Shown: positions 13,854-35,483 of the stretch, in pieces
How positions within the stretch are numbered: the stretch's first letter is position 1
How the letters are laid out: each line of letters begins with the position of its first letter
Origin: a virus
IMG/VR virus record: IMGVR_UViG_3300009703_000030
Span: 1-49,790 of that record
Reading direction: 5' to 3' (one strand)
DNA length: 49,790 nucleotides
Notes under the pieces: model-generated
The model's input: the letters and a program-made list of their open reading frames with translations, nothing else
Databases searched by the model: none
What the model was told of the DNA's origin: nothing
Position numbers and translations under genes: made by a program

Positions 13854-15117
13854 AAATTTCAAGACCGACCCCATCCCGGCACACCACGCACCGGGCGAGC
13901 GTGCGGTAACAGGACCGGCATACGGGACAGAGGACATCCTCACAGGATACGAGGGGGTCTACGAGGAACTGGAGGTCCCTGAATTAGAGCGAGTAGAAAG
14001 CACGTTCGCGAAATTCGCCCCAGACGAAGAGGGTGCGAGTCACCGCTTGCAGGGCAGCGGTCCCCACGCCCGTGCCAGACGGCGGATGTACGAGCAGTTC
14101 CGTGGTTACAACGCCGACAAGGGAATGAGGGCTGATTCATCTGACCGTCAGATGGAGCGGGCGATGCGTCAGTATTTCCACGGGCAAGGTGTCGACAGTG
14201 CCGGGAACCGCAGACGGTCCTACGAGGATGTCCTGAACTCTTTCCTCAAAGAAGAGATGGCACAGGAGGCTAGGAAAGAGCAGGTCCAATCCAAGTACAA
14301 GTCGGAGCAACAGGAGTACAACGTCAGGCGTCTTCTGCGTCAGCGGTTGGAGTCGAGCATCCGTGGCATGGAGGGTCTGGGTGCTGCCGGGGAGTCAGCG
14401 ATCAGGAAAAGGTTCGCAGAAAAACGCGCGGGGATGGGTGCGTCTTTTGTGGGTGCGCCATCAGGGACAGCCCGTGCTGGGTTCGAGGCTAAGCTTGCCG
14501 CTGAAGAGGAAGCGGCACTCGCGGCGCATGGGGAGAGTGTACGCAGGGAGCGAATGGGTTACGAAACCATGCTGACCGGCGACCTCGCCAACTCGTTCTT
14601 CAACATCGAGCATCGCGGTCCATCCACCGAGAGTATGTGGAACATGATGTTCCAAGCGGGGCAGTCTGGGGCGGGTTCCGGTGTCCAGCCTCAAGGCGGA
14701 CAGACCCAGAAGGGTGCAAGCTCAGGTGCTGCTCTCGGTATCGGTGCGGCACTGGCGTTCGCCTTCTGTTGCTGGATCTTCATGGCTGTCTATGGGCCGG
14801 AACTGGACGAGATTGTTCGACGGTATCGCGACGAGAAGATGACTGCACGCAACCGTCGTGGTTATTACAAGATGTCTGATGTCATAGTCCCGCTGATGAT
14901 GAAGCACCCGTGGGTGAAGTGGGTTGTCCGCTACACGATTTGCGAACCGCTGATTGCATATGGTCGGTGGTACTACCGCAACGAGGTGAAGCGTCCGTCT
15001 ATCTGGCGTCACGTCGGTTTCATCCTGAAGCCTGTCGAGATGTTCTGGATGGGGGTCTGGAACCTCCTTGGTGGTGAAGTCAATTACATCCGTGCCAACG
15101 GCGAACTGGTGAACTAA
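13846..15117 (+). CDS. internal virion protein with one membrane segment and conserved C-terminal domain
   Basis: 423 residues, ATG 13846. Residues 80-300 are charged and helical (long coiled-coil-like stretches, A/E/R/Q-rich). A strongly hydrophobic segment lies at ~300-325 (GAALGIGAALAFAFCCWIFMAVYG). It is followed by a compact block with invariant-looking residues: VRRYRDEKMTARNRRGYYKMSDVIVPLMMKH, then W, Y and R positions to the end. Similar 'C.I....YG..L...VR..RD' blocks close internal virion or tail proteins in other podovirus-type genomes. It probably enters or spans the host envelope during DNA ejection with the two following proteins. The stop overlaps the next ATG. Confidence 0.65.
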   Translation: MPENFKTDPIPAHHAPGERAVTGPAYGTEDILTGYEGVYEELEVPELERVESTFAKFAPDEEGASHRLQGSGPHARARRRMYEQFRGYNADKGMRADSSDRQMERAMRQYFHGQGVDSAGNRRRSYEDVLNSFLKEEMAQEARKEQVQSKYKSEQQEYNVRRLLRQRLESSIRGMEGLGAAGESAIRKRFAEKRAGMGASFVGAPSGTARAGFEAKLAAEEEAALAAHGESVRRERMGYETMLTGDLANSFFNIEHRGPSTESMWNMMFQAGQSGAGSGVQPQGGQTQKGASSGAALGIGAALAFAFCCWIFMAVYGPELDEIVRRYRDEKMTARNRRGYYKMSDVIVPLMMKHPWVKWVVRYTICEPLIAYGRWYYRNEVKRPSIWRHVGFILKPVEMFWMGVWNLLGGEVNYIRANGELVN

Positions 15118-17312
15118 TGCCAATCGTAATCAATCACGCTCCAGACATTTCACTTGTTGGTTCCGTTGCGCACGGGGCTGGTCGTGGTGAATATGACAAG
15201 TGGGTCTACCAGCAGAATGTGCAGCGTGAAGCCGAGAAGACGCAGGCGTTTTTGAGTGCGTTTGGGCAGTTCAGCAGCTTTGGTCTTCAAGCTGCTCAGA
15301 TGCGGCAGAACAAGCAGATCGCCAACCGGCGGATGGATATCTACGAGAAGCAGATTAGTGCGAGGACGAACGCAGCGAAGGTTCAGGCGTCGCAACAAGC
15401 CGCGCGGGAGTTGGCGCAGTATGAAGACTTGCGAATGCCCATGGAGCAGGCTGAGGCGTACATGTTTCCGTCCAACTTCTTTCAGTCGGACGAACTCAAC
15501 GCGCGGAACCAGAGGATGAGGGAAAGCTGGAGTGGTGTTGGTCCGGGTCATGCTCGATTTCAACAACGGCTGAAGAACTTTCAGGCGTATGAACAGTATC
15601 AAGCCAAGCGTTCGCTTAATGACGGAATACCATTCAGCAGACAGAGCAACGTCGCGAGGGGGACTCTGGGTCGGCAAAGCTACCGAAACGACGCATATGT
15701 CACCGACAACCTGATGCCCCGGTTCCGCGCAGAGATGGACAAAGTCCTAGACCATCTGCCGACCGACCAGTTTGCCATTCCGGGTAACCCTCGAACTAGA
15801 GGACGCTACAGGCCCGGCGGTATGGGTGGCGACTACGGTCCTCCCATATCACCGGAGATAGCACACAAGCAGATCGAAGGACTCAGGCAGAAATACAGGG
15901 CAGAGTATGACCTGCACCGGAAGCAGTCGCCAAATGCGATAGAGCAGTATTGGCAAAATCACACCCTCATCTCTCCTGTTACGGGAGAGGTCATCAACAG
16001 GCAGACAGGAAGAATAGAACCGGGACCGAAGCCACCGGGTGCGCCTGAAACAATCTTTCTCAATGAATGGAATGAAGATAAGACGAGTCAATACACAGCA
16101 CAATACGGAGAACACAAGCAGCAACACGAAAGTGCTTGGGATGACGGACAGAAAGAAGCAGACAGGAAAAGGTCTTTGGCGGAAAAGAATGCCGCTCAAG
16201 CCAAGGCGGCACTCAACACAGCACAAGAAGCATACTTAGCGAAAGGCGGCGACCCAGAGGGATTCGACCTTGCGGGCCAGACAGCGGCGATCGACAGCAA
16301 GCTGAACGATGCCCTCGCCACCATCGAGGCAGAGCGCAAACGAGTGTTTGGAAGATTCAAAGGATCCCCACAGGACCCAACGACTGGGTTGGATTGGACC
16401 CGAACATTTACAGGCACTCCCTCGCACAAGTTCTTTCAAAGACAAAAAGCAATGGGACAACTCCCTTCGGGGGCAACAATGGGATTGTACGAGGGGGAGT
16501 TGCACCGACCGGGAATGACAAGAGAAGAGATGCGTGACGTAGAGAACTGGAGGGTTCCTCCAAATGCCCCAAGCACTCACAGCCGGTTCACTCAACACAG
16601 ACTCAGGAGGGATATGGGCAGGTTTTCCGAAGCGCACCCCGAAAGCCCGACCGCGCATGTTTACAGGTGGGCCTATCCAAAACCACCAACAGACCGAACG
16701 ACTCAGATCAATCAATCAACGGCAGAGTTCATGAGTCAGAGCGGCAGCAGCAGACTCGGACAGGCAGACACGAGGCCTGAAGGAGCAGGACGCTCCATGC
16801 ACTACATAGAGGGCGCGCCGGGTTACCTCCAAAGGCCATATGAACCCAACTTTGGCGAGCGGTTACTGGGCATGGGGGGGCCATATGATGACCGGGTCGA
16901 ACCCGAACCTTCAGCGGGGTGGGAAGACGGCAAGCCACTCGGTCCTGTGGGCAGACCACTCCCATCCGGGGTCATTTCCCCCGAACCCGGATATACCTCA
17001 ACAAGAAGATCCACTCAGGGAAGGACCCCCATAAGCAAAGATATAACCTTTGTGCAGGAACTAGATGCCATCGGAGATCAGTTTGCGGGTGACGAACAAA
17101 CCACAAAAGACGTTGCACTCCTCAAGGCCACTATGGACAGCGACAAGCACTGGACGAAAACAGGCAGAGGACTCGTCATCAACTCAAGAAACTGGTCAAG
17201 AGAAGAAATCGATGCTCTCAAAAGGATCGCTGGTCGACGGGCGAATATGGATGGCCCGCTTTTCCGCAAGAAGAAACCTTTCCTAATCGACGGCAAGCTT
17301 GAACGCAGGTAG
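15117..17312 (+). CDS. internal virion protein, large hydrophilic
   Basis: 731 residues, ATG 15117, overlapping the previous stop by one base. The N-terminal ~120 residues are a coiled-coil-like helix with many Q, A, R and K (e.g. QKTQAFLSAFGQFSSFGLQAAQ region, then RRMDIYEKQISARTNAAKVQASQQAARELAQ). The rest is hydrophilic, rich in R, G, P, Q and T with little hydrophobic core, until a short C-terminal helix-rich domain (FVQELDAIGDQFAGDEQTTKDVALLKATM.., residues ~640-720). It is the second of three internal proteins and precedes the giant protein by 7 nt. Probably part of the ejectosome. Most of its body may be disordered. Confidence 0.6.
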   Translation: MPIVINHAPDISLVGSVAHGAGRGEYDKWVYQQNVQREAEKTQAFLSAFGQFSSFGLQAAQMRQNKQIANRRMDIYEKQISARTNAAKVQASQQAARELAQYEDLRMPMEQAEAYMFPSNFFQSDELNARNQRMRESWSGVGPGHARFQQRLKNFQAYEQYQAKRSLNDGIPFSRQSNVARGTLGRQSYRNDAYVTDNLMPRFRAEMDKVLDHLPTDQFAIPGNPRTRGRYRPGGMGGDYGPPISPEIAHKQIEGLRQKYRAEYDLHRKQSPNAIEQYWQNHTLISPVTGEVINRQTGRIEPGPKPPGAPETIFLNEWNEDKTSQYTAQYGEHKQQHESAWDDGQKEADRKRSLAEKNAAQAKAALNTAQEAYLAKGGDPEGFDLAGQTAAIDSKLNDALATIEAERKRVFGRFKGSPQDPTTGLDWTRTFTGTPSHKFFQRQKAMGQLPSGATMGLYEGELHRPGMTREEMRDVENWRVPPNAPSTHSRFTQHRLRRDMGRFSEAHPESPTAHVYRWAYPKPPTDRTTQINQSTAEFMSQSGSSRLGQADTRPEGAGRSMHYIEGAPGYLQRPYEPNFGERLLGMGGPYDDRVEPEPSAGWEDGKPLGPVGRPLPSGVISPEPGYTSTRRSTQGRTPISKDITFVQELDAIGDQFAGDEQTTKDVALLKATMDSDKHWTKTGRGLVINSRNWSREEIDALKRIAGRRANMDGPLFRKKKPFLIDGKLERR

Positions 17313-17319
17313 GTAATCA

Positions 17320-20300
17320 ATGTCGACTGGAATCTCCCTCGACGAAGTGTTGCAGCAGTACAGCGACCAGACAGCGGAGGTCGGTCAGGATGTGCGCCCT
17401 GCTGGACTCCAGCCCACGGAAGACGACACAGGGTATTTCCCCGAGCGGGACATCTCGCTTGACGACGTGTTGTTGGATCTCGATTTCCAGCAAAAGCACC
17501 CCGAAGGGCGAGAAGCATTCCGTGATGCCACAACGGAAGACGAGGTTGCTGCCGCTAAGGTGTGGATGGAGGCGTATGAAAAGAAGAAGCACCAACTGGA
17601 CCTGAACCGAGAGTTCAGAATTTCTCAGCGTCAGTACGCGAGAGATAACACTTTCCGTGCCGGGGAGTCGATGCGCCAGATGGCGACACTCTCCCAGATC
17701 AGCAGGGCATACGAATCGGACCCGAAAGGTTGGGAGCAGGGGTCAGAGAAAGAGCGACTCGACCTGTGGAACAAGATCCGTGAGAAGGACGGGCTGGAGG
17801 TAGCGACCGAGTTTCCGCAGTTCGGACCCAAGGGAGAGGGGGTCTTTGGTCACGGTCGGCTGGGTCCGATCGGACACAAGCAGGACATCAGCGAACTCGG
17901 AACAAAAGGACCTGATCCGTTCTACCTCCGCTCTCTGATTCGTATACCGCCCACTTCTGTCAAGAGTGTAGAGGACGCTGTCTTCTATGCATCAGTGAAC
18001 GACGCTGCCGAGAATCTCGAAAAGGAGTGGAAGGCTGGACGAGAGGGGCACGCTGACGACTGGGAGAAACTGGTTGCGTTCCACCGCGACTTGGTTCAAG
18101 AGCAGAGGGGGAAGACGGAGGGTTGGCAGGCTGACAACAAGTGGCTTGCTGACGGTGCTGAGGAGATGTACGAGTACATCGGATCGTTCTTTGCTGGAGG
18201 GTTGATTGCAAAAGGCGCGATGAAGATGTTGCCAAAGATGGCAGTAAAGAAGGCGGGCAAGACAGCGGCGAAGAAGAGTCTGAAGAAGGTTGTATCGAAG
18301 CTGATCAAGCGGATGGCGGATCCAGATGCAGGGTTCTTGATGAAGGCTGGGGCAGCGGTGACTGGCGGGTCAGCGAGATTCGCCCTTGGGTTCCCAGCCT
18401 TTGCGCCGATGACAGCCAAGAAGATGTATCGGGACATGGTCCCGGCGACCGCCGTCAGGGAAACTCCTGATGGTGATATCAGGATGCTCGCTGAGGACAA
18501 CAACAACGACTACGAAGCAATGCTCCCCTTCATGCTCGACGCTCTTGGGGATAGCTACATCGAGATCGTGTCGGAGCATTCCGGTGGCGCGCTGGCGAAA
18601 GGTGTTGGCAATGTTGCAGGCGCGGCAGGCCATTACATTGGCAAGTTCGGGAAATTTACCCACGTCGACAAGGCGGCGACTGTCACCTTGGACTACCTGC
18701 GACGGACAAAGCTTGCTGCGATTTACGGTGCGGCTAAGTGGCGAATGATGGAGTTTGGGGAGAAGTTCCTCCCCGCTTGGAACAACACAATGAGCATCGC
18801 CCGAGCGGGCGGGTTCCATGGAATCCTAGAGGAGATGGGCGAAGAGGATGTCGGTCGGATTATGCGGGCGGCTTCGGGCATTAGCTACCCGAAAGACATG
18901 AGTCTTGAACAGCGGCTTGAGCATGCGTGGTCCGAGAGTGTCGACGCAGAGATGCGAATGAAGGAGGCGCAACTGTTCTCTGTCCCCGGAGCGGTAAGTG
19001 CGACGATTGCCGGTGTGGGGGTTGGGGTGGGTCTTCCGGGGGCAATGGTGCGAAAGGGAAGGCGGAAGAAGGCAGAAGCACAGATGGACAGGATGCGTGC
19101 CGCAGAGGAACGCGAGGAGGCTGTCCAGCGAGGAACAGAGGCTGGCGTACAACAACCAAGAACGAAGAGATACACCCCCCATCAGATCGTGTACGGGGTC
19201 GAGGAACACAAAGACCAAGACGAAGCGATGGAGGTGCTGTCTGGGATCAAGTGGAGTGCGAGAGCGAACGAGGGCAAAGGTGGTTTTGTCAAAGCTGATG
19301 GAACACCACTGTCGAGAACAGAGTTCGCAGAACTGACCGGAGGTGTTCGGACTTCGGAATCAGAAGACCTCGTCACAGATAGTGGAACAGTCGTCAAAGG
19401 ACTGAAGAAAAATGCCCTCATAACTAGGTACGTGCAAGAAGTAAATCGACTAAAAAAACAGCGTAAAGCTAGGGAGAGGGAAGAGGTATCCCCCACCGGA
19501 ACCCCACGAGAAGAGCGTGAAGAACCGGTTGGCGGTCAGGAGTTCAAGACGGCGAGAGAGGCACAAGACGACCCACCTGCGGAGGAACTCTCGGACGAAG
19601 AGTATCGGGAGCAGTTGGTCGATGGGACCTTCGGTCGTGGGAGCAGGGTCTTTCGTGTGGGAGATACCCCGCCAGACCGACCGGGTGTGTCGGAAGCAGA
19701 CGACGTTGAAGAGGGGCAGATCCACAGGGAGTTGCGGACTGCCAGTAGGTCGCTTGGGATCGAGGGGAACGTCCTCATTGTGGACCCAACGCTCGAAGCA
19801 ACTACCCCCGGCGCGTTCGATCCACGGACGGGTGACATCTATCTTGCCCGCGCCACTGTCGACAAACACCGCGCGGAGAATCCGAAGTCGCCCGCCAAGG
19901 CAATGCGGAAAGCGGTCGAATCAGTCTTTGCGCACGAGTGGACGCACCGCCTGAGGAGAACAGACAATGAAGCTTGGGAACAGATCCGTCGCACCACCCT
20001 TGCTGAAGAAGATGCAAGGGCGGCATTCACAAGGATGGCAACAGGCGACCCGCTCCCAGCCAGACCCACAGAGCAGGAGGCATTCGACGCACCCGGATTG
20101 CGGTTGTTCAAGCAGTATTTCGCGGACATGGAGGCGGCGGCAGAGAAGGGTGACCCAGCGGGCAAGAAGTTCATGAGAAAGTGGCACGAACTTGCAAGAC
20201 GAGCAAAGTCTACAGACCCGCAAGACAAACCGGGAGAAGCACGCGAAGAGCAGATGAACTTGATCTGGGATGAGGGGACCGCGAACTTCATCGAACAGAA

Positions 20301-23300
20301 CTTCACCAAGATGGGGTTCTGGTCAAAGATCGCGAAGAAGGATGCCGGGTTGTTCCGGCGAGTCACCGACTTCTTTCGCAGGATGTTCTACAGCGTTGCG
20401 GACTCAGCGACATTCCGCGCAATTGACAACGCAATCAACCGTGCCGCAGAGAAAGCAGACTTCCCGAAAGCGGGAGAGATGGAACTCCGCGACCCGCTGT
20501 TCGCCGCACCTCGCTTCGAGGCATTCACGGAAGCGGATCGCACCACAGCACAGAGAACATTTCGGCACGGCAGGTTCACTGACAAAAGGATCGTGGTCGA
20601 CCGTGTTGCCGACACCGTTGCCAGTTGGAACCGGCAGGCCCCGCCGGATGTGTTGAACTACGGGGCAGGCAAGGCTGACGGCTTGAAGCACAGTCAGCGG
20701 ATCAGGGACTTAGGGGCCAACGTGGTCAGCCACGACTTCCCAGAGAGCATGGCGACATGGCCAGAAGAAGAACAGCCGCCCCCGAGTGACCAGATGCGAG
20801 GGATCCGCCGCAAGCACGATATCGTATTTGCCAGCGCGGTTCTGAACACGATCCCCAGCCGGGAAGGTCTGGAAACATCGATCGCCCAGATCGCTAACGC
20901 GACGAGGGCGAAAGGTGTGGCGATCGTGAACTACCCAAGGTTTGACCAGCACCCGTTGTCGAAGGTCCCGCAAGAAGAGTTTGAGTCTATGCTCAACCAC
21001 TACTTCGGTCGGGTCCGTCGAGTGAACCAAGACAACGCCAGCCCCATGTACGAGGCGTCACAGCCGAAGCGGGCAGCACTCCCATCTGGACCCCTGTTCG
21101 CGGCGAGGAAGGCGGCGACAGAACCAAGGAAACTGTCGAATCGATTTGAACTCGTGAAGGTCAAGCCCGGCACAAGCCTGTCAGATGCATGGGGTGAAGA
21201 GGGCTTGTACATGATCGATCGCGAGAGCGAGGTTCCGTACAACAACCTCAACCCACGCGAGGGAGGTCTGGGGGCAGAGAGTTACTGGTCTGGGGGCAGA
21301 GGGACGTTCCACCAGTTCCGTGTACAGGGTCGCCGGTACGTCACGTACCCTTTCTACAAGGCGAGAGAGAAAGAGGCCAACGAGATCGAGGGGGTCAAGG
21401 TTGGGGATCCCGTCGCTGTTGTCATCGAGGTTGGCGGTCAAGACTACACGCCCGAAACACTCCCGCGACGGACGATAAAAGACTGGGAGTCCGGGGCTTA
21501 TTACGCCGCTCCTCAACAGCAGACAGCGTTCGGTGACCCTGCGTTCAACCCGACAAACATCAACGAGATGCTGGAGGGAATCTTCAACCAGCGTGGCATC
21601 GAGGATGCTGGTTACCACCCGCCTGATTACAGGCAGACTCAGGTCAGCAGGGCAACCTCTCCCGTCCCCGGCAACCCACCCACCAGAGAACTGGGTGGGT
21701 TTCTCGGCGGGTTCGCGATCAGTGCGGACGCACCCAACGAAGACATAAACCTCCTACGCAACAGGTTCCCCGGACTGGGGGGAGAACTGGAATTCTTTTC
21801 GTCCGTCAGCGGGCGTCGCGATAGCGGGTTTGGTTCTGACGCCACATTCGTCGTTATCTCTACAGCAACACACGGCGATACCAACGGTGTAGCCCACCAC
21901 CTACTGGTACAAACGACGGACCTTCCATTCAGGGTCGCCAATAACACGGATGAGGGAAGAGAGCTACAGGAAGAGAGGACGCGAGAACTCAGCAGGAATA
22001 TGAGAAATCACGGACTAGACCCCGCCTTTGAAAGGTTCGGCAGGGGCATGGGTGTGGATCTCGCAGAAGAACTACAACTGTTCCCCAAAACAACCCACGA
22101 CGCCCGTCCGAAACTGCTCCTGCTTGGCACACACTTTGTGAATGGCATGTACAACTTGGATGGTCAAGTTCTCACACCCGCAGCCCGCTTGGGTGTAGTT
22201 GCGCGTCCGTGGACGGTTGTTGGTGGCCACCTGTTAGAGGGCAGCGGGGGCGTGATTGCTACTCGCACTCCCTTTGCGCGTGTTGGGCAGATGGACAACG
22301 TATATGGGTCAAACGAAATCCTGCTCAGGGATGAAATGGGCGTGCCGCTTGAAACGGAAGAAACACTATCCCTATGGCGGGACGCTCTGCTTGCTGACTA
22401 CGCGACAACCATCAATGAACTCAACAGAATGGTGAGGGTTCAGTTGCAGTCGTCACAAGGGCCCGCGCCGGTCTTGGCTGGATTGTCACAAGAGGGTCGA
22501 CAGGAAGACGACATTCGATCCGACATTGAACAACGAGTAGAGGCGACGGGGGCAGACCCCCTGCTCATCGTCGATCGCCAGCAGATCTATTCGGACTACG
22601 AGATCGGTGCTTATTCGGGACCAGACTCCAGTTTCCCGGTGGCTGGCAGGGGACTAAACGAAACTATCAACGCTCTCGTCAACTACCATCCACAAATTGA
22701 GGTTGCCGGTGTATTCCATCGTCCCGGTATTGGGCTGAATGAAGTTGTTGAGGATGCCCGCCTCTCCGAAAATCTGACCCAACTCCAACTAGTGGAAGAC
22801 AACCGTGTCGAGGAAATGATTGTCGTTGTCGGCAAGCATCTCGGAGGTCAAAGCAGAGGGGGGGTGGTAAACAACCCGGAACAGTACATGTCCATCAGGC
22901 TGGTCAGGGTGTCGGGCAGTTTCAGCACGACAGGCGACAAGACTTGGCTGCCAACGCATGTCCGCATGTCGATGGAAAAGGAGAGATTCGCTGACGTAAG
23001 CGAAATGACCATCCAGAGAGGGTCGGTTGAACTCGCCAGTGCTGGGGTGACGGGCATGATAAGGGTTCGTTCTGCGGGGCCGATGATCAGACAGACCCCG
23101 GAACGCATTGGTCTTCTCGCTCACGGAATCTCCAAGATCCTCGAGTCCCACCTCTCCTTAGAACGGGATGTGATGCAAGGGGAACCGGACTGGGTGTATG
23201 GGGAACCGTTGCAGGGGGACATGTGGAGCAAGTTCCGAAGCCGCGCTGGACAAACCCACTCTGGTGTCTACTTCGCCCGTCGCATGGATCTCCCAATGCG

Positions 23301-26300
23301 AGATGGCTTGATGCAGTACATTCATGAGTTTGGGCAATTCACACGGGAATCAGTAAACGAACAAGAGCGACATGTTGCAGACGCATTCGGGCGATCATCT
23401 CCTACTGCTGGAGTCACTCTTGCCGAGAACAGCACAAGGTTATTGCGGCAGCGATGGCCGCGACTGAGGGGGTTGAGGGTCATCAACCCGACCATTGGCA
23501 ACAGGGAAGTTGCGCTGGTTTTAGGACTAGACAACTTAACGCCAGCAGACGAATTCATCGTGATAGGACTGAAGGAGGAGGCCAACCCAGACACCGGTAA
23601 GCTTGAGTGGAAATACGCTCCGGTTGATGCGGCCCCAGAATGGAACACGCTTACTACATGGGAAACGCATGCGGCAGACATGGTGATCCGAGCGGGTGGT
23701 TCTCGTATCGTTGACCAAGAGGAATCACTCAGTAGGTTCAAGCTGATAACTGACCTTGTGGTTATGGAGTCTGATGCAGGACAACCCCTGCACTTCGCTG
23801 ACGTTCTGACCACCGTCGATCTAGACGCTGGAGTGATGTCCGAGAGAGGGACCTCCGTCAACATGATCATTCAGATGGAGGATGTAGAGACTGGAGAACC
23901 CAGAGAGGACGAGGAAGAACTACTCCTGACTCCACACCGATTGATCAGCAACTCAACTGAGGACCAGCATGTAAATGCGTATGGCCAAACAGAGGTAAAG
24001 GCATACGGACACAAGGTCGTCAAGCCACTAAAAAACATCGTTGATCTTGCCTACGAGATCTCAGGAAAAGGCCGGGCAGAAATGACATCGGACGAGTTCT
24101 GGACCCTGATCCAGAACATGTCTACTGACGATGTTGGGCCGCACTGGCAAGAAGGAGGAGGGGAATCGATAGAGCGGAGAGATGTAGAGTCACACCAAGC
24201 ACACGGACCACAGCAGCGGCAAGACAAAGAGATCTTTGACGAGTATTTCCGACTCCGATTTCGTGAACTGGGGATCGCAGGCGACACATACAAGATGAAC
24301 GCTGTGCGTTATCACTCAGGTCTTGACAATGTTGGCGTCTTGGAACAGGGCATTGAAGGGTGGGATTCAACGGAAACCGCAATACAGCGACACCAAGACT
24401 TCTTGGAAGCTTTGGTCAATGATCCTAGAGTCGTAAGCATCACCATAGAGAAGGGTGTTGGGCAGGACCCGTCCGTTCTGACGCGACACATAAGCAGCCG
24501 TGTTTCTCTCCCTTCTGCCGCCTATACCGCGATGCCCACTCTGAACAACAGGGACTACTTCACCGTCAATTTCGGAAGGGGGATGGAGGCGACCCTTCAG
24601 ATGACTCCGTCGATCTACATCTCCATCATCAAGAACGCGATGTACGCTCCTGACGCCAGAGATACAGGAAGGGCTAATGCAGCAATGGCGGCGATTGCTG
24701 ATGCGGCAGACCGAACAGATTCTGTTGTCACGGGATATCCCGCCGCTTTCGGGGCCATGCCGCAAGGACAACTGATCAGGTGGTACGGCGCAAACGGCTA
24801 TGAACCGGTCTTGCTGCACATGGTCGCTGACCAGTTGTGGCATGGTGGAGGAGATGCGCACTTGAGTTGGCACGGATGGCGACACCCCAGCACTGAAGAG
24901 AGGGTGTGGGAGGCAGGCAAACCTTTTGTGAACGAAGAGGGGCAGGCGTTGTGGGGGTGGGAGGGTAGGGTTCCACCACCACAGATGAAGGCGATGCGAC
25001 CTAGATACGAAGAACCCAAGCAAAACAGCGGACCACAACACAGCGACATCCTCACCGACAATGTGAGCAATGTCATCAACCTTGAAGCGTGGGGCAAATT
25101 GACGGAAGAACAGAAAAAGAAAGTGGGAAGATTCAAGGATGGCGTGTGGAAAGGGGCAATGAAGAGGTATGACAATGGAGATCTGTATCCCAAGCAAATG
25201 GAAACCAGAACGGCATACCTAAAACGACTCTCAGATCAGGGCATCACGCCATACTACGCCGCACAGACACGGACCCTTGATGACCTGAAGGTCACAATCC
25301 CTGAGGCTGAACGTCTGTTCCAGACAGCCGGGTATCGTCGTGGTCGTTCCATGGCGAGGACAATGGAAGGCAAGAACTTCATGCAACTGGACCCGGATCG
25401 GGTTGGCCCAGTGTCATCCATACTTGAAGGGATCGGGTCCGATCAGGTTAGCGCAGACCTACAGCGTCTTTGGGATGAAGTTATCAGCGAGATGCCGCTG
25501 TGGCAGGGGAAGGACGGGAAGACACAGTTCGAGGAGGCGAACTCTGCGCTCAAGGATGAATATGGATTCAAACTTCCCAACGGGTGGGAGAAGAAATTCC
25601 CAACAGCGGGCGACTTTCTTATTGGTTCAACTGCACTGCGGGATGAGTTCAGGTATTGGTACGAGAGATACGTGACTGCGTCACGTCAGTACCTCGACCT
25701 GACTGACCACGAGTGGGATGTATTCAACAAGGTGCTGGCAGCGACAAGCCAGAGAACCAATGTCAAAGACAACATGGAGAGAACGCTCTCGATCATGTCG
25801 GAGATCTTTGGTAACCGGTTCGGTTCCACCGATGTCATCTCCGACCAGTCCATTCGCAACGCACTCAATGGCCAGTTGGGCAGCGAGGATCAACTGAAGA
25901 CTGGATCGTTCAACGCCACGTTTGAGTTCATCGCTGGACGAGGGGCGAACGTACCGCTCTCGACGAACGATGCGATTATGGCGAAGGTCTTTGGTCTTCC
26001 GGGTAACGCATTTGCTGACTCGTTCTGGTACGAAACCATCAGCCGTTACATGATCAAGATGTCTGGCTACCTGAACTCGAAGCAGGGTGGAGAACTCGAA
26101 CCCTACCAGCCATGGCAACTACAGGCGTTGATGTGGGTCAATCGAGATGATGACCGGGCGTCCCAGACCTACGTCCAGACCCTTGAGTCTTTCATCGAGA
26201 GGGCGATCGAGGCTGGCGTGATGAAGCCGGGTGAGAAGATCCGACCTGAGCATCTTGCAGACCCAGAGATGAGTGATATCGCTAGGTCTGGCAAGCACAG

Positions 26301-29300
26301 CCACTTCCACAGAACACCTAGAGGAATCTACACACTGAAGGGGTCCGAGTATCGTCCCGTCCAGAGGGCGAACATGCTCAGGAACCTGCTCAGGTGGGGT
26401 GCTTCACATCTTGCCGTGCCTGAGCGGATGCGGACTGCTATGGCGAACAGGATCGCCAACGGTTACGACGCAGCGTGGCGGGCATTCTCGAAGAAGATCA
26501 GCGGCAGCCAACCCTACAAACGCCCCTTAGATAGCGGGATACTCAAGAACGGCGACATCCTCACGGAGTTGTTCTCAGCGATCAGTGGTCTGAAGGCTGG
26601 GTACACTGCCGTGCTGGCCGACCCTGCCGTCACCAGAGCGAGTCGGGTGAAACCAGCGACGACCGGGGGAGCAATCTACTCGGAAGACGCCGACTCGACG
26701 ATGACCATTCCGTTCTGGAACGTCGACAACTTTACCCGGCAGATGATGAACGCACTCATCGGCAGGGCGACTGGGTCTGGTGGTGCTGAGTCGGTTCGCA
26801 TGCAGGTCCATGACGGTGAGAGCGGAATGGAAGTCCAGCGTGGTGAGATCAAGTACACCACGAGCGGGGTGTTTATCAAGGACCTGAAGTTGACCGAAGA
26901 ATCCACCCGGTGGATCGGTGACTGGGTGCGAGAGAACATCGGTGGAGGGTTCCGTCTTATCACTGAGGTCAACTGGTCTGGGTCACAGATAGTTGCGGTC
27001 GCCCCCACAGCCTTGTCGATGCGGGCAACCAGTCGACGACAGCCGACGATAGGCATCAGGCAGCAGGACCTTGTAGATGCTGTCTTCAACACCGTCGCAG
27101 AACACGAGGGTTGGTCTGAGAACGAGTTCGTGGAAAGGGTTCGCCCCGTACAGATGCTGGTGAGTTTCAATAAGCGAAGTGACCAGTTGACTCAGGGGGA
27201 TTACACTGGTGTAATAGACCGTGGCTTAGAGAAGATACTGAATCAGGATACCGAGAACGATGGCGAACAACTTTTCAGAGGGATCAAAAGGTTCTCAGGA
27301 ACAAGCCGGGCAGCCGAACCAATTCGGCTTATCGTCAGGGACGCCGCAAAACGGAAGCGAAAGGGATTCGAGAATCAGCTTCGACGACTCCTTCAGCGAC
27401 CAGAACAGTTTCTTTCAGAAGTCGACTGGGCCGACATACAAGAGCGCACCGGAATTGAAGACGGCGTCGAAAGAAGAGTACGAGAAGCTCTGGCGCGGTA
27501 CTCACGGTACATACGTGCAGTTGATGCAATCGAACAGCTTGGGTCTGCCGCAGGCGGCTTTCAATCTCGACTCGACAAGTTCTCGGAAGCGTCGATAAAG
27601 CTGCTGGAGCGGGCTGAGAAGGCGGCCAACAAAGAGGGCCGCGATTTCGACTACAAGTCCGAGGCCACCAACGGTCCAGAGGATCGTGTCGCCCGCATCC
27701 CGTCAGGTGTCTTGTTTGCTGCACGCAGGCGACGGTCTGACAACCTTGCGAACCCGGCGACTGATCAGGGGGCTAGGGATCTTGTCGACTCCGTTGACCA
27801 GCAGGCGAGGGAACTTCTCGACCTTGCGGGCATACGTGAGTGGCGGCACATGAACAGGGACGAGGTCCGCAGGCAGACCGTTGTCGAAGAGGAGGGTGAG
27901 GAGAGGATCTGGAAACTGAGCGCGGCGAGAGTTCGCAAGCAACTCCTCGATAAGATGGAGGTCGGTCGCGCGTTCACCGATGTCGACACGTATTGCGCAA
28001 AGAAGCTGATCAATATGTACGGGATCCGGTCGATCCAGTCTGGCAACCCTGAGGAACTTCGGGCGACGATTGCCTTGATCGAGGGTTACAGGGACGTCGG
28101 CACGGAAATGGCGAGAGCGTTCCGCCAGAGGTTCGACCCGATCGAGACCCCTCGTGAACGGCGGAAGCGTTTGATGACGGAGGGCATCCTGCGTCCAAGC
28201 GCGAGGTTGCAGAGAAAGATCGCAAAGGCGAGGCGAGATAAAGACGCCGAACTTCTGAAGTTATTGCGCGACTCGATTGCCGATGAGAACGTAAAGCTTC
28301 TGGATCATTTGACGAAGCTGGGGTTCGACCTCGACAACATCGAAGAGTACGCAAACGACCCTCGTTCCACGTTCCAGATACTCCGTATTGCTCAGACCTT
28401 CAAGGCGAGCAACGGTGACAAGGCATACGAGTGGTATATCAATGCACTCCTCTCCGGTGTGTCTACACAGGTCGCCAACGTCGTCGGCACTGTGCCGTTG
28501 TCGATCTGGGAGTACGCAGTGAAGCGACCGCTGGAAGCGGTGGTCAGCCTGCCCATACGCAAGGGCGAGAGGGTCACGTTCGGTGAGATCAAGCATATGT
28601 GGGGTGCGTTCTGGCCCCACATGAAGAAGGCGGCGAGGATCGCCCTCATGGCCCACGACACAGAGGTCCCTCAACTTGAGGTGATGCTTGGTCGCGGGGT
28701 GCAGGGTCTTCAGAAATATGAGATCCCAACCGTTTCGATCAAGGGCAGGAAGGGGAGGTTCATCCGTTCCGGGTTCACCGGGCTGACGGGAACCCGGATG
28801 CTTCTTGCGGTCGATGAGTTCATGAAGAGTGTGATTTCAGGAATGGAGGTCAACGCACTCGCCTACCGGGAGATGGTGGCGAAGAATGTGTGGAAAAGAG
28901 CGTTTGACGCAGCACTTGATATCGGGTCAGTCGGTGTGCAGAGCGAGGTCCCTCGTGGTCGAGCGAGGACTCAAGCTGAAGCCAGACAGATGGCTGACCA
29001 AGCAGTGTCTGTTGCGATGGCTGAACTGATCGCAGACACGGAGGGAATAAAGTCTGATGTCTGGGACCGGTCGATGGACATGGCCCACCTGCTCACGTTC
29101 CAAACAGAACTGGGTCCGATCGGGCAGAAGGCTGTCGCGCTGCGGGACTCTGCGTTCGTCTTTAAGTACATCGTTCCTTTCGCAAAGACATTGATCAACA
29201 TCACCAAGGTTGGCCTGTTCCCGAGTTCCCCGTACTCCGCGCTTGGCTTCGCTGAAATGCCCAAGGAGATCTGGGACCTGTACATGAAAGAGGATCCCAA

Positions 29301-30729
29301 GGCCAAGCTTGGGTTCCGGTTCGTCAAACCAGAAGAACGCGACTGGACGAAGGTGTCGTCGAGGGCCATCGCTCAGGCGGGCAACTTCCTTGCGTTCATG
29401 GCGTTGTACAGCCTTGTGGATGGCGACGACGACGAGCGTCCGTGGGTGACTGGAAGCAAAGAGGTCTGGAGCTATCGAAGCAGGTTGACGGGGATGCGAG
29501 CGGGAACACCGCCGCCACTGTCCTTTGCGGTCCCTGTTCTCAGAAACGGTCAGATAGACAAGGGTCCATATGTTTCTTTCGCAAACGTCGAACCGATATC
29601 CACGATCTTTGGGTTCGCGATCGATGCGATTCTGGCAATAAAGAGCGGCGACCCTGCTCGAATGGCGACAGACCTGCCGAAGAGTCTGTCTGGGCAGATC
29701 TTTGAGAAGAACCTAACGAGAGGCGTAAGCGATTTCTTCAAGGTCTTTGAACAGCCTGACATCTACGGACCCAAGTACCTGTCGCAGTTCGTCACCGCAT
29801 GGATCCCCGGCGTCTACAAACGAATCGCCAGAGCAGACCGCGACTACCTGCCAGACAGGCGGGTCTACGGGGACGGTACAGACTGGCTGAAGATGCTGGG
29901 CCGACGCACCATTGAGAGGACCGAGATTGCCAGACACATCTTCCCGAACTTCGTGATCGACCGCCCGGCGTGGGACATCTGGGGTAGGCACATACCGTCT
30001 GACGTAAACCCAGCGATGCAGACCAAGGGCATGAACTGGTTGTACCGCGCGATGATGCCGTTCCACACCCAGTATTCCGAAGAGTTCCCGATGGATGTCG
30101 TCATCAGGAAATGGAACGACGAACACAACGATCCACGAGATCAGGTGCATTTCATGCCGCCCCGACCAACGTGGAAAGACCGTCGTGGTGTCGAGCATTA
30201 CATGACCCCGGAACAACTCGACCAGTTCCAAAAGCTTTCAGGTGACATCGCCCGCGAGGTCGCCAAGATGGAGATGCCGTTCATCGACTGGAGCAAGCCA
30301 ACATCCCAGCAAGACGCTGATGCCGTGAAGAGCGTTGTCAACGACAGCCGTACTCTCGCCAAGGATACCCTGTCGAAAGTGTGGATAGGTCGGACGACGG
30401 AGGCGGATGCTTACGGTGAACTGGCAGGGGAATTGCACCGGAAGCATATCGAAAAGCAGGCGGCACTTCTGGCTAGGCCCGCCCCGTCCCGCAAGGCACT
30501 CGGTGTCTACAAGAACAAAGAGGACTGGGAACTTGAGGTTGAGAAGTGGGAGGACAACAAGAGGATGGCGGCAGAGTGGTTGAAGAACCGTGGCATCACG
30601 AAGAAGCAGGTGTTCAAAGCTTTCCCGTACCGCAAGGGTCCGCAGGCTAGGCTGAGGCTGGCGGGAGGGCTTGCCAAGTACGGGGTCAAAGCAAACCGGG
30701 GAACCGGTGAGGGGGCGGTTGCTCCGTAG
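17320..30729 (+). CDS. giant 4469-residue polyvalent internal virion protein
   Basis: ATG 17320 to TAG 30729, 27% of the genome. Order seen: helical and amphipathic N-terminus with basic Lys-rich and hydrophobic segments (~280-620); a zincin-like peptidase (HEWTH, residues 872-876; candidate third ligand E985 in WDEGTANFIE); a class I methyltransferase domain (LNYGAG at 1112-1117, HDIVFASAVLN from 1166); a long block without recognised domain (~1264-2750); a helical domain at ~2770-2940 (KVLAATSQRTNVKDN, then STNDAIMAKVFG) like the DUF/HhH-type domain in other large phage proteins; and a C-terminal part with the 'NALLSGVSTQVANVVGT' (3708-3724), 'FKYIVPFAKTLINI' and 'YVSFANVEPISTIFGFAID' segments typical of large ejected phage proteins. 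LFAA motifs mark domain junctions (1060-1063, 1259-1263, 3465-3469). It is likely packaged and ejected with DNA, protecting or remodelling it. Giant size suggests processing. Confidence 0.85.
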   Translation: MSTGISLDEVLQQYSDQTAEVGQDVRPAGLQPTEDDTGYFPERDISLDDVLLDLDFQQKHPEGREAFRDATTEDEVAAAKVWMEAYEKKKHQLDLNREFRISQRQYARDNTFRAGESMRQMATLSQISRAYESDPKGWEQGSEKERLDLWNKIREKDGLEVATEFPQFGPKGEGVFGHGRLGPIGHKQDISELGTKGPDPFYLRSLIRIPPTSVKSVEDAVFYASVNDAAENLEKEWKAGREGHADDWEKLVAFHRDLVQEQRGKTEGWQADNKWLADGAEEMYEYIGSFFAGGLIAKGAMKMLPKMAVKKAGKTAAKKSLKKVVSKLIKRMADPDAGFLMKAGAAVTGGSARFALGFPAFAPMTAKKMYRDMVPATAVRETPDGDIRMLAEDNNNDYEAMLPFMLDALGDSYIEIVSEHSGGALAKGVGNVAGAAGHYIGKFGKFTHVDKAATVTLDYLRRTKLAAIYGAAKWRMMEFGEKFLPAWNNTMSIARAGGFHGILEEMGEEDVGRIMRAASGISYPKDMSLEQRLEHAWSESVDAEMRMKEAQLFSVPGAVSATIAGVGVGVGLPGAMVRKGRRKKAEAQMDRMRAAEEREEAVQRGTEAGVQQPRTKRYTPHQIVYGVEEHKDQDEAMEVLSGIKWSARANEGKGGFVKADGTPLSRTEFAELTGGVRTSESEDLVTDSGTVVKGLKKNALITRYVQEVNRLKKQRKAREREEVSPTGTPREEREEPVGGQEFKTAREAQDDPPAEELSDEEYREQLVDGTFGRGSRVFRVGDTPPDRPGVSEADDVEEGQIHRELRTASRSLGIEGNVLIVDPTLEATTPGAFDPRTGDIYLARATVDKHRAENPKSPAKAMRKAVESVFAHEWTHRLRRTDNEAWEQIRRTTLAEEDARAAFTRMATGDPLPARPTEQEAFDAPGLRLFKQYFADMEAAAEKGDPAGKKFMRKWHELARRAKSTDPQDKPGEAREEQMNLIWDEGTANFIEQNFTKMGFWSKIAKKDAGLFRRVTDFFRRMFYSVADSATFRAIDNAINRAAEKADFPKAGEMELRDPLFAAPRFEAFTEADRTTAQRTFRHGRFTDKRIVVDRVADTVASWNRQAPPDVLNYGAGKADGLKHSQRIRDLGANVVSHDFPESMATWPEEEQPPPSDQMRGIRRKHDIVFASAVLNTIPSREGLETSIAQIANATRAKGVAIVNYPRFDQHPLSKVPQEEFESMLNHYFGRVRRVNQDNASPMYEASQPKRAALPSGPLFAARKAATEPRKLSNRFELVKVKPGTSLSDAWGEEGLYMIDRESEVPYNNLNPREGGLGAESYWSGGRGTFHQFRVQGRRYVTYPFYKAREKEANEIEGVKVGDPVAVVIEVGGQDYTPETLPRRTIKDWESGAYYAAPQQQTAFGDPAFNPTNINEMLEGIFNQRGIEDAGYHPPDYRQTQVSRATSPVPGNPPTRELGGFLGGFAISADAPNEDINLLRNRFPGLGGELEFFSSVSGRRDSGFGSDATFVVISTATHGDTNGVAHHLLVQTTDLPFRVANNTDEGRELQEERTRELSRNMRNHGLDPAFERFGRGMGVDLAEELQLFPKTTHDARPKLLLLGTHFVNGMYNLDGQVLTPAARLGVVARPWTVVGGHLLEGSGGVIATRTPFARVGQMDNVYGSNEILLRDEMGVPLETEETLSLWRDALLADYATTINELNRMVRVQLQSSQGPAPVLAGLSQEGRQEDDIRSDIEQRVEATGADPLLIVDRQQIYSDYEIGAYSGPDSSFPVAGRGLNETINALVNYHPQIEVAGVFHRPGIGLNEVVEDARLSENLTQLQLVEDNRVEEMIVVVGKHLGGQSRGGVVNNPEQYMSIRLVRVSGSFSTTGDKTWLPTHVRMSMEKERFADVSEMTIQRGSVELASAGVTGMIRVRSAGPMIRQTPERIGLLAHGISKILESHLSLERDVMQGEPDWVYGEPLQGDMWSKFRSRAGQTHSGVYFARRMDLPMRDGLMQYIHEFGQFTRESVNEQERHVADAFGRSSPTAGVTLAENSTRLLRQRWPRLRGLRVINPTIGNREVALVLGLDNLTPADEFIVIGLKEEANPDTGKLEWKYAPVDAAPEWNTLTTWETHAADMVIRAGGSRIVDQEESLSRFKLITDLVVMESDAGQPLHFADVLTTVDLDAGVMSERGTSVNMIIQMEDVETGEPREDEEELLLTPHRLISNSTEDQHVNAYGQTEVKAYGHKVVKPLKNIVDLAYEISGKGRAEMTSDEFWTLIQNMSTDDVGPHWQEGGGESIERRDVESHQAHGPQQRQDKEIFDEYFRLRFRELGIAGDTYKMNAVRYHSGLDNVGVLEQGIEGWDSTETAIQRHQDFLEALVNDPRVVSITIEKGVGQDPSVLTRHISSRVSLPSAAYTAMPTLNNRDYFTVNFGRGMEATLQMTPSIYISIIKNAMYAPDARDTGRANAAMAAIADAADRTDSVVTGYPAAFGAMPQGQLIRWYGANGYEPVLLHMVADQLWHGGGDAHLSWHGWRHPSTEERVWEAGKPFVNEEGQALWGWEGRVPPPQMKAMRPRYEEPKQNSGPQHSDILTDNVSNVINLEAWGKLTEEQKKKVGRFKDGVWKGAMKRYDNGDLYPKQMETRTAYLKRLSDQGITPYYAAQTRTLDDLKVTIPEAERLFQTAGYRRGRSMARTMEGKNFMQLDPDRVGPVSSILEGIGSDQVSADLQRLWDEVISEMPLWQGKDGKTQFEEANSALKDEYGFKLPNGWEKKFPTAGDFLIGSTALRDEFRYWYERYVTASRQYLDLTDHEWDVFNKVLAATSQRTNVKDNMERTLSIMSEIFGNRFGSTDVISDQSIRNALNGQLGSEDQLKTGSFNATFEFIAGRGANVPLSTNDAIMAKVFGLPGNAFADSFWYETISRYMIKMSGYLNSKQGGELEPYQPWQLQALMWVNRDDDRASQTYVQTLESFIERAIEAGVMKPGEKIRPEHLADPEMSDIARSGKHSHFHRTPRGIYTLKGSEYRPVQRANMLRNLLRWGASHLAVPERMRTAMANRIANGYDAAWRAFSKKISGSQPYKRPLDSGILKNGDILTELFSAISGLKAGYTAVLADPAVTRASRVKPATTGGAIYSEDADSTMTIPFWNVDNFTRQMMNALIGRATGSGGAESVRMQVHDGESGMEVQRGEIKYTTSGVFIKDLKLTEESTRWIGDWVRENIGGGFRLITEVNWSGSQIVAVAPTALSMRATSRRQPTIGIRQQDLVDAVFNTVAEHEGWSENEFVERVRPVQMLVSFNKRSDQLTQGDYTGVIDRGLEKILNQDTENDGEQLFRGIKRFSGTSRAAEPIRLIVRDAAKRKRKGFENQLRRLLQRPEQFLSEVDWADIQERTGIEDGVERRVREALARYSRYIRAVDAIEQLGSAAGGFQSRLDKFSEASIKLLERAEKAANKEGRDFDYKSEATNGPEDRVARIPSGVLFAARRRRSDNLANPATDQGARDLVDSVDQQARELLDLAGIREWRHMNRDEVRRQTVVEEEGEERIWKLSAARVRKQLLDKMEVGRAFTDVDTYCAKKLINMYGIRSIQSGNPEELRATIALIEGYRDVGTEMARAFRQRFDPIETPRERRKRLMTEGILRPSARLQRKIAKARRDKDAELLKLLRDSIADENVKLLDHLTKLGFDLDNIEEYANDPRSTFQILRIAQTFKASNGDKAYEWYINALLSGVSTQVANVVGTVPLSIWEYAVKRPLEAVVSLPIRKGERVTFGEIKHMWGAFWPHMKKAARIALMAHDTEVPQLEVMLGRGVQGLQKYEIPTVSIKGRKGRFIRSGFTGLTGTRMLLAVDEFMKSVISGMEVNALAYREMVAKNVWKRAFDAALDIGSVGVQSEVPRGRARTQAEARQMADQAVSVAMAELIADTEGIKSDVWDRSMDMAHLLTFQTELGPIGQKAVALRDSAFVFKYIVPFAKTLINITKVGLFPSSPYSALGFAEMPKEIWDLYMKEDPKAKLGFRFVKPEERDWTKVSSRAIAQAGNFLAFMALYSLVDGDDDERPWVTGSKEVWSYRSRLTGMRAGTPPPLSFAVPVLRNGQIDKGPYVSFANVEPISTIFGFAIDAILAIKSGDPARMATDLPKSLSGQIFEKNLTRGVSDFFKVFEQPDIYGPKYLSQFVTAWIPGVYKRIARADRDYLPDRRVYGDGTDWLKMLGRRTIERTEIARHIFPNFVIDRPAWDIWGRHIPSDVNPAMQTKGMNWLYRAMMPFHTQYSEEFPMDVVIRKWNDEHNDPRDQVHFMPPRPTWKDRRGVEHYMTPEQLDQFQKLSGDIAREVAKMEMPFIDWSKPTSQQDADAVKSVVNDSRTLAKDTLSKVWIGRTTEADAYGELAGELHRKHIEKQAALLARPAPSRKALGVYKNKEDWELEVEKWEDNKRMAAEWLKNRGITKKQVFKAFPYRKGPQARLRLAGGLAKYGVKANRGTGEGAVAP

Positions 30730-31032: not shown

Positions 31033-31067
31033 CACGGATGACCGGCCCGGCATCTAAATCATGGAGG
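31033..31067 (+). promoter_or_regulatory. two CsrA-type GGA sites in the csrA leader
   Basis: CACGGATG (31033-31040) and CATGGAGG (31060-31067) both match the core CANGGANG of known CsrA targets, with their GGA centres 27 nt apart. The second covers the SD (GGAGGA) of csrA. Spacing fits one CsrA dimer bridging two sites, so binding would block ribosome access and give negative autoregulation, as described for host csrA genes. The match is seen in sequence; the regulation is inference. Confidence 0.5.
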
Positions 31068-31073
31068 AGTGTG

Positions 31074-31283
31074 ATGCTCGTACTCGGAAGACGACCCAAT
31101 GAGTCCATTGTAATCTCAACCCCGGTGGGGGAGGCAAAGATTACAGTGTTTGCTCAGGCCAATGTGCGGTTGGGGGTCGAAGCACCGGCAAACATGGTGA
31201 TCCGGCGAGATGAGATTATGGTGAAAGGGGTGAGGCGCAATGAACAAGACGATCGGGGAGTGGAGAGAGTGGCTGGGGAGTGA
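31074..31283 (+). CDS. csrA: CsrA-family translational regulator
   Basis: 69 residues from ATG 31074 (SD GGAGGA at 31064-31069). An in-frame ATG at 31038 is rejected because it lacks an SD. The protein begins MLVLGRRPNESIVI. L4, R6 and R7 match the RNA-contact residues of CsrA, and the IRRDEI block (R45 aligns with E. coli R44) and VRLGVEAPAN match the family's second motif, with one residue added in the loop. CsrA dimers bind GGA in mRNA leaders. Here it could control its own leader, other phage mRNAs or host flagellar/carbon genes. It is the first gene of an operon and overlaps the next gene by 44 nt. Residues after ~55 (NEQDDRGVERVAGE) are a longer tail than usual. Confidence 0.9.
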   Translation: MLVLGRRPNESIVISTPVGEAKITVFAQANVRLGVEAPANMVIRRDEIMVKGVRRNEQDDRGVERVAGE

Positions 31284-34632: not shown

Positions 34633-35483
34633 TCCTGTTGTTGTTAGCGTCGACCGCAGCGGGTGAGGATTCCCGTCTGGCGAGTGTTCGTGTCGGCGGG
34701 TGTTCAGGGACGATCGTCGCAGTGATCGGGGGCAGGGGATACGGGATCTCCGCAGGGCACTGCGCCACCACCGGCAAGGCGGTGTCTGTCATCAACTCCA
34801 AGGGTGTCCGGGTTGAAGGTGAGTGGGTGGCTGTCGACTCGGCGGCAGACCTCGCGTTGTTCACCTGCCCGGCGTCAGTGGTTCTGGATGTTGCCCCACT
34901 GGGAGGGGGTTCGTCTGGTCAACTTCATGGCTACGGTTGGCCCGGCGGCAAAGGACCATCCCGGCTGGACCTGACAGCAGACGGCACGGAAAAACCATCG
35001 AACCTTCTGGTAGTTAGGTCGAGGTATCCGGTGAAATCTGGAAGGTTTCGCAACGGGTCGAGCGGCGGCGGGATCTTTCGTGGTAACAGGCTGGTCGGTG
35101 TGCAGACGCATGGCGATGATGACGAGTTGGTTCTGGCTGTCACACAGGCACAACTTCTAAGCTTCTCAGAGGCCCAAGGACGGACGTTCTCCGTAAACCT
35201 GACCAATCCCTCAGACCAGAAGAGCGGGCCGCTCACAGGCCCATTGTTTTCTGACCGTGACAGGACGAAAGCGATTGCTGAAATCAGATCGGTGTTGTTA
35301 TCATTATCGAAGACACCGGGACCACCCGGTCCACCGGGGAAGGACGGTAAGGATGCCGACCCGGACGTGGAACAATTGAAGCAGCGTATCCGTGAACTGG
35401 AACAGCGGGTAGTTGCACTCGAAGAGTGGCGGCGTAATTTCAGAGCAACAATTCGTGTCCGGGTAACACCCAAGGAGAATTAG
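34614..35483 (+). CDS. secreted trypsin-like serine protease with collagen-like stalk and coiled coil
   Basis: 289 residues, ATG 34614. A signal peptide covers ~1-17 (LILLLLASTAAG). The chymotrypsin-fold triad can be read: H49 in GISAGHC (C30-C50 may be a disulfide), D79 in SAADLAL, and S150 in NGSSGGGIF (GxSGG form). Residues 236-248 are collagen-like (GPPGPPGKDGKDA), followed by a coiled coil at ~251-272. The catalytic head, collagen-like stalk and coiled-coil trimeriser suggest an exported, oligomeric protease. It lies right behind the holin-like gene. It could help lyse a host with a proteinaceous surface, process virion proteins or act on the host surface. Secretion is strange for a phage protease. 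Confidence 0.75.
   Translation: MAKCWLILLLLASTAAGEDSRLASVRVGGCSGTIVAVIGGRGYGISAGHCATTGKAVSVINSKGVRVEGEWVAVDSAADLALFTCPASVVLDVAPLGGGSSGQLHGYGWPGGKGPSRLDLTADGTEKPSNLLVVRSRYPVKSGRFRNGSSGGGIFRGNRLVGVQTHGDDDELVLAVTQAQLLSFSEAQGRTFSVNLTNPSDQKSGPLTGPLFSDRDRTKAIAEIRSVLLSLSKTPGPPGPPGKDGKDADPDVEQLKQRIRELEQRVVALEEWRRNFRATIRVRVTPKEN

Follow-up and report, generated by a model that had tools for sequence, protein, structure and literature searches.

Three LFAA strings in a giant phage protein as a possible zincin-linked linker motif

The 49,790-base record of an uncultured virus analyzed here (IMG/VR IMGVR_UViG_3300009703_000030; the window) has as its largest open reading frame (ORF) a gene that starts with ATG and encodes 4,469 residues, a probable podovirus ejection, or "polyvalent," protein with a predicted zincin-like metallopeptidase domain. 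Three strings in this protein, RDPLFAAPR, LPSGPLFAAR, and IPSGVLFAAR (copies 1 to 3; coordinates of all features are in Table 1), share the core LFAA, which raises the question of what the repeated core is for and whether the built-in peptidase has anything to do with it. We found that the strings exceed chance expectation and mark linkers and that a similar site tends to follow the zincin domains of giant phage proteins. Tentatively, and with somewhat less than even confidence, we read the three strings as copies of one linear motif, a zincin-linked recognition sequence that is possibly cut after ejection.

The three strings and their setting

The three strings and the HEWTH motif of the peptidase were found in the translated ORF at exactly the residues named in the original prediction; the nucleotide span given there, 20488 to 27729, starts correctly and ends, trivially, 3 nucleotides beyond the real end at 27726. 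LFAA occurs three times in the protein against 0.11 occurrences expected, a count reached in none of 2,000 shuffles. Over the whole predicted proteome (about 14,500 residues), 0.28 occurrences are expected, and 5 of 2,000 shuffles reach three. The strings are thus real and exceed what chance would produce. Eight residues (PSG-LFAAR) are common to copies 2 and 3, and all eight codon pairs differ. With 0/8 codons in common, a recent duplication of the DNA is ruled out as their origin, and the agreement fits conservation at the level of the protein.

HEWTH, the predicted zinc-binding and catalytic motif, is the only HExxH in the protein. We assign its domain as zincin-like from this motif, the modeled core, the order of Foldseek matches, and a candidate third zinc ligand, E985, placed by comparison with AEExxA in other polyvalent zincins. 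The AlphaFold2 (AF2) models, built from the single sequence without an alignment, had mean predicted local distance difference test (pLDDT) scores of 49 and 50; their usable part is the zincin core, where strands and helices were predicted at a pLDDT of about 80. The best Foldseek matches of the zincin-region model were minigluzincins, at E values that were not significant.

The phenylalanines of copies 1, 2, and 3 rank 9, 22, and 1 for flank hydrophilicity among the 173 phenylalanines of the protein (P of about 0.0007 for a random triple). Since these flanks are unusually hydrophilic, the copies appear to mark linkers. In the low-confidence AF2 models, copy 1, 189 residues after HEWTH, falls in coil directly past the last helix of the zincin region, and copy 3 comes after a confidently predicted helical segment, in a stretch of low confidence. 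The earlier proposal that the strings stand at domain junctions therefore holds in outline, given the hydrophilic flanks and the place of copy 1 behind the zincin domain, but the methyltransferase domain said to end at copy 2 and the single block of ~2,200 residues said to end at copy 3 are putative. The region between copies 1 and 2 had no match in Pfam, NCBIfam, or the PDB; it gave one weak PHROG match (phrog_5475, function unassigned; E value of 0.003).

A similar site behind other zincin domains

A comparison set was assembled from 30 other zincin-bearing phage and prophage proteins, some of them related to one another, comprising LPD38-type giants of phages and prophages, zincin proteins from the Cerasicoccus phylum (Verrucomicrobiota), and proteins of DarB-like phages. 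Scoring used a leave-one-out position matrix limited to aromatic cores, and the zone 90 to 215 residues after HExxH was compared with other windows of the same proteins. The zone outscored the other windows across the 30 proteins (Kolmogorov-Smirnov P of about 7e-6), with 43% of them at P ≤ 0.1. Lone [FY][SA] sites in hydrophilic linkers recur behind the zincin, as in phiARM81mr (GGKKFSQ), BcepIL02 (DGARFSV), and Ochrobactrum POI1126 (SKRFSIA), and FAA-type sites occur there in L115 (DGTFAAA), L116 (DGLRFAA), and L118 (DVRFAAA). In a matrix trained without the giant protein, copies 3, 1, and 2 took ranks 1, 7, and 58 among the 4,459 positions of that protein; of its 28 F[SA] sites, they ranked 1, 5, and 10 (P of about 0.02).

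The outcome depends on how the site is defined. A plain count of [FY][SA] behind zincins showed no enrichment (1.17×; P of 0.18). Enrichment of 2.1× to 3× was obtained with preferences for the preceding residues, which were chosen after the sites had been seen, so that the leave-one-out model is the fairer test. Without the aromatic restriction, the matrix gave a P of 4e-7, a value inflated by non-aromatic matches such as QLGDVTPAQLR. Among 20 giants, the residue following phenylalanine in linkers showed a weak trend (29% versus about 17%, with 14 residues), and a zincin profile scan of the phylum of a Deltaproteobacteria metagenome-assembled genome (MAG) holding a relative of the terminase of the phage yielded nothing useful. 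We conclude that a similar [FY][SA] site tends to follow the zincin domains of giant phage proteins, as a statistical association. Such a motif was not described in the literature searched (openly licensed papers), and the link between a short motif and polyvalent zincins is the apparently undescribed part of this work.

Recognition, anchoring, or other origins

If the strings form a zincin-linked recognition sequence, the motif would be roughly [G/D]-x-[L/R/Q]-[F/Y]-[S/A], placed in flexible linkers of a giant ejection protein. The built-in zincin would recognize it in cis and may cut it, probably once threading has brought the chain into the host, which would release individual domains; alternatively, the peptidase may hold the motif as a pseudosubstrate and leave it uncut. 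Under this reading, an active zincin, its recognition of the motif, the cut, and the timing of the cut would all have to be assumed. A wider version, in which this pattern is a general substrate signature of polyvalent-protein zincins and megaproteins are programmed to split into effectors inside the host at cut sites that can be read from sequence, seems to us rather unlikely. Processing of polyvalent proteins by their zincins has been proposed since 2017, and a motif behind the zincin offers specific, mutable residues for testing the idea. If cut, the motif would allow injected effectors to be delimited from sequence; if uncut, it would still hint at what orders or anchors giant cargo proteins inside the head.

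Several observations weigh against recognition by the zincin. HEWTH is about 380 residues from copy 2 and about 2,600 from copy 3, and recognition in cis over these distances is conjecture. The post-zincin zone of the 4,469-residue protein is itself unexceptional in the leave-one-out model (P of 0.16), over half of the 30 proteins compared have no clear site, and the motif columns were set by eye before a test in which some proteins are related. LFAAR is absent from the giants of the closest relatives, G002 and G006. Finally, the virion RNA polymerase (vRNAP) of N4 (Schitoviridae; 3,500 residues), likewise a giant ejected protein with an HExxH in its zincin-like C1 domain, has an LF-containing string, DGTLFHS, just behind that domain in a place comparable to copy 1, and its density is continuous across the string in a 2.8-Å map of the recombinant full-length protein (PMC12633501). 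DGTLFHS (residues 2383 to 2389) lies near the C1/C2 border, with F2387 159 residues after HELVH; it scores poorly in the motif matrix (rank 74), so its equivalence to copy 1 is positional only. Among relatives, OLIVR2 (36% identical) keeps ALFQS at this site, and Ruegeria phage V13 does not keep it.

Published work on processing points in both directions. Polyvalent zincins were proposed to autoprocess, and P1 DdrB was described as processed (PMC5512222); no cleavage-site motif was found in the text of that paper. The zincin-bearing N4 vRNAP (383 kDa) was modeled as a single polypeptide, unfolding on its way through a tail of about 35 Å, and the map of its C-terminal domain, running from the zincin-like C1 into C2 (border at 2375/2376), is continuous except for loops 2522 to 2528 and 2643 to 2663 (PMC12633501). 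The virion of crAss001 contains RNA-polymerase-associated cargo proteins (155 to 277 kDa) whose extrusion is thought to take place in a partly unfolded state (PMC10172136). Because unfolded passage is envisaged for the N4 and crAss001 giants, splitting for passage through the portal is not needed, and the proposal that the protein travels as separate pieces finds no support. Neither does cleavage into at least four pieces, given that the nearest relatives' giants do not align and lack the string and that the N4 chain is continuous at the comparable site. What stands of the proposed tie between HEWTH and the strings is the association, through the leave-one-out result and the linker setting, and not the cutting into pieces.

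An uncut docking or anchoring role is almost as likely as recognition by the zincin. Here, the lone linker aromatic would pack on a neighboring domain or bind a partner (e.g., the portal, the inner surface of the capsid, or other ejection proteins) and so order the chain in the head or during threading, with no proteolysis. The continuous N4 density, at a site where C1 and C2 touch, and the unfolded passage envisaged for N4 vRNAP and crAss001 cargo agree with such a role, and the occurrence of the core in two further proteins of the window, a 731-residue virion-type protein and a trypsin-like protein, suits a shared partner better than self-cleavage. Docking does not, however, predict that similar sites should accompany zincin domains; its partner is purely hypothetical, and a virion location of the trypsin-like protein would have to be assumed.

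It is improbable that the strings are a relic of domain shuffling, i.e., a linker that traveled with shuffled domains or persisted as a spacer, with no specific function. The giants of this phage group do change fast. Relatives recognized by capsid protein or terminase carry a giant ORF in the same place (2,264 residues in G006; 4,448 residues with HEIAH in G002), yet the G006 giant does not align with the 4,469-residue protein despite 73% identity of the capsid proteins. Because neither the G006 nor the G002 giant aligns, the gene is best read as encoding an ejection protein subject to rapid replacement or divergence. The eight residues shared without a common codon speak against recent copying, however, as does the recurrence of similar sites in distant proteins against a relic in general.

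Scans of viral contigs and tblastn searches of phages yielded no homologue that could be aligned at the junctions, returning only fragments of the same virus (L001 and L002) or the non-aligning giants of relatives. A search of 2.9 million IMG/VR viral contigs for exact PSGxLFAAR (codons CTN and CGN) gave 24 loci, none of them in frame within a giant ORF, and PSGxLFAAR was rejected as a widespread mark. As a separate observation, unrelated viral ORFs (L050, L055, L057, L067, L070, and L071; up to about 345 residues) contain PPSGVLFAARG where a proline-rich linker ends and a further segment starts. G006 and G007, for their part, combine the 73% identical capsid protein with an ejection giant that is half as long and non-alignable, a very fast replacement of one gene.

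Quite improbable, in our view, is that the trypsin-like serine protease encoded downstream is the processor, cutting after the arginine behind LF in each copy, at its own GPLFSDR (self-cleavage), and once near the C terminus of the 731-residue protein. Presence of the core in these two proteins keeps a shared partner or a serine-protease processor in play. The pattern [GD][PV]LFx0-3R, set post hoc, occurs five times in the predicted proteins against 0.15 expected (0/2,000 shuffles); all five [GD][PV]LF strings have an arginine within four residues, which no shuffle matched. GPLFSDR is by far the top motif-model site of the protease protein (10.3 versus 3.8 for the next), and apparent His and Ser motifs accompany a Trypsin_2 match slightly under the curated cutoff (E value of 3.6e-5; 25 bits) and a PHROG protease match (E value of 1.7e-6). 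On the other hand, arginine is common, the P1 specificity of the enzyme would have to be assumed, and a crude motif scan found no such gene in relatives. The protein also has a signal-peptide-like N terminus, which suggests export away from assembling virions and so makes a part in assembly less likely. A collagen-like GPPGPPGKDGKD linker and a coiled coil come after the protease part. A secreted-looking trypsin-like protease with a collagen-like stretch is unusual for a phage.

Least likely is coincidence, i.e., three look-alikes built from the common residues L, F, A, and R and picked by eye in 4,469 residues: the post hoc pattern and the contig search would allow it, but the excess over expectation, the 8/8 match of copies 2 and 3, and the independent linker placement speak against it.

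The giant protein, its neighbors, and its relatives

The 4,469-residue protein as a whole had no match in Pfam or PHROG, and searches that included pieces of it against Pfam, PHROG, and NCBIfam gave no curated family at significance. Its C-terminal region resembles internal virion protein D of Roseobacter phage CRP-403 (tblastn E value of 1e-5 with 22% identity; blastp 1.4e-7 in a seven-sequence set). With this similarity and its position late in the structural module, the protein has the properties of a podovirus internal virion or ejection protein, and gene order together with the C-terminal match suggests that it is packaged and ejected with the phage DNA. Matches to a major head protein and a tail protein lie upstream of the giant gene, a PD-(D/E)XK nuclease and a Sak4-like annealing protein lie downstream, and the terminase is at 46827. 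The N terminus of the 731-residue protein is 28% identical over 83 residues to a G006 gene (E value of 6e-10).

Table 1. Features in the window, with residue (aa) numbers of the encoded proteins
Feature	Position	Strand	Basis
731-residue probable virion/ejection protein, directly upstream of giant gene	15117..17312	+	N terminus related to same-place gene of relative G006
DGPLFR, aa 712-717, near C terminus of 731-residue protein	17250..17267	+	Sequence
Giant ORF, probable podovirus ejection/polyvalent protein	17320..30729	+	C-terminal tblastn match
Zincin-like metallopeptidase domain (predicted), aa about 780-1056	19657..20487	+	HEWTH, AF2 core, Foldseek order
HEWTH, aa 872-876, predicted zinc-binding and catalytic motif	19933..19947	+	Sequence
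EGTANF, aa 985-990	20272..20289	+	E985, candidate third zinc ligand by analogy
Copy 1, RDPLFAAPR, aa 1057-1065, linker behind zincin domain	20488..20514	+	Sequence, AF2, flank hydrophobicity
Region between copies 1 and 2, methyltransferase-like by eye only (LNYGAGKADG)	20515..21078	+	Sequence
Copy 2, LPSGPLFAAR, aa 1254-1263	21079..21108	+	Sequence, flank hydrophobicity
Copy 3, IPSGVLFAAR, aa 3460-3469, then RRR	27697..27726	+	Sequence, flank hydrophobicity, best motif-model site
C-terminal region, aa 3688-4200, similar to CRP-403 internal virion protein D	28381..29919	+	tblastn, blastp
Trypsin-like serine protease gene, 289 aa	34614..35483	+	Pfam Trypsin_2, PHROG protease
GPLFSDR (within TGPLFSDR), aa 209-215, directly behind trypsin-like catalytic domain	35238..35258	+	Best motif-model site there

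Among the closest known systems are the polyvalent proteins (Iyer et al. 2017; PMC5512222), which occur in phages and conjugative elements. The DarB-like protein of Burkholderia phage BcepIL02 (4,667 residues) is likewise a giant encoded late in the structural module, with an internal zincin-like domain (predicted in the 4,469-residue protein), long hydrophilic linkers, and an [FY][SA] site behind the zincin. In contrast to polyvalent proteins, the 4,469-residue protein has no detected Pfam LPD, helicase, methyltransferase, or ART domain, and it carries three near-identical LFAA(R) copies where they have scattered FS sites. Unlike N4 vRNAP, it gave no Pfam match to a T7-like single-subunit RNA polymerase domain in any piece. 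CRP-403 internal virion protein D occupies a comparable place in the structural gene order (the T7 gp16-like position) and aligns with the C-terminal region but has only 1,221 residues, with neither HExxH nor the LFAA motif. The G002 giant, from IMG/VR, shares the gene position (after a 788-residue protein) and comes with a terminase (TerL) about 45% identical to that of the window, but it has different domains: its ANPPF N6-methyltransferase motif and its helicase-like region each resemble Bacteroides phage BS-TP4 gp3. BLAST gave no alignment to the 4,469-residue protein.

The terminase is 65% identical to one in a Red Sea Deltaproteobacteria MAG, with relatives near 40% in Cerasicoccus and planctomycetes. 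On the contig of the Cerasicoccus frondis relative (40%), an 1,847-residue LPD38 protein (HEAGH) is also encoded. The Red Sea MAG and C. frondis may serve as leads to the host of the phage group.

Two further genes were noted. Between the giant gene and the nuclease gene, a small CsrA-like protein (MLVLGRRPNESIVIS...; 31038 to 31283) was recognized by eye; Escherichia phage Pondi likewise has a csrA gene (17153 to 17353) close to its giant gene, and a CsrA peptide was detected in virions of Burkholderia phage JC1 (PMC9144972). A fiber-like protein with repeated blocks (SAATSSALGLMKLEDDTEQSVAANSVSATAGRTYGVQFNSSDQAVVNVPW) is encoded at 11354 to 13546.

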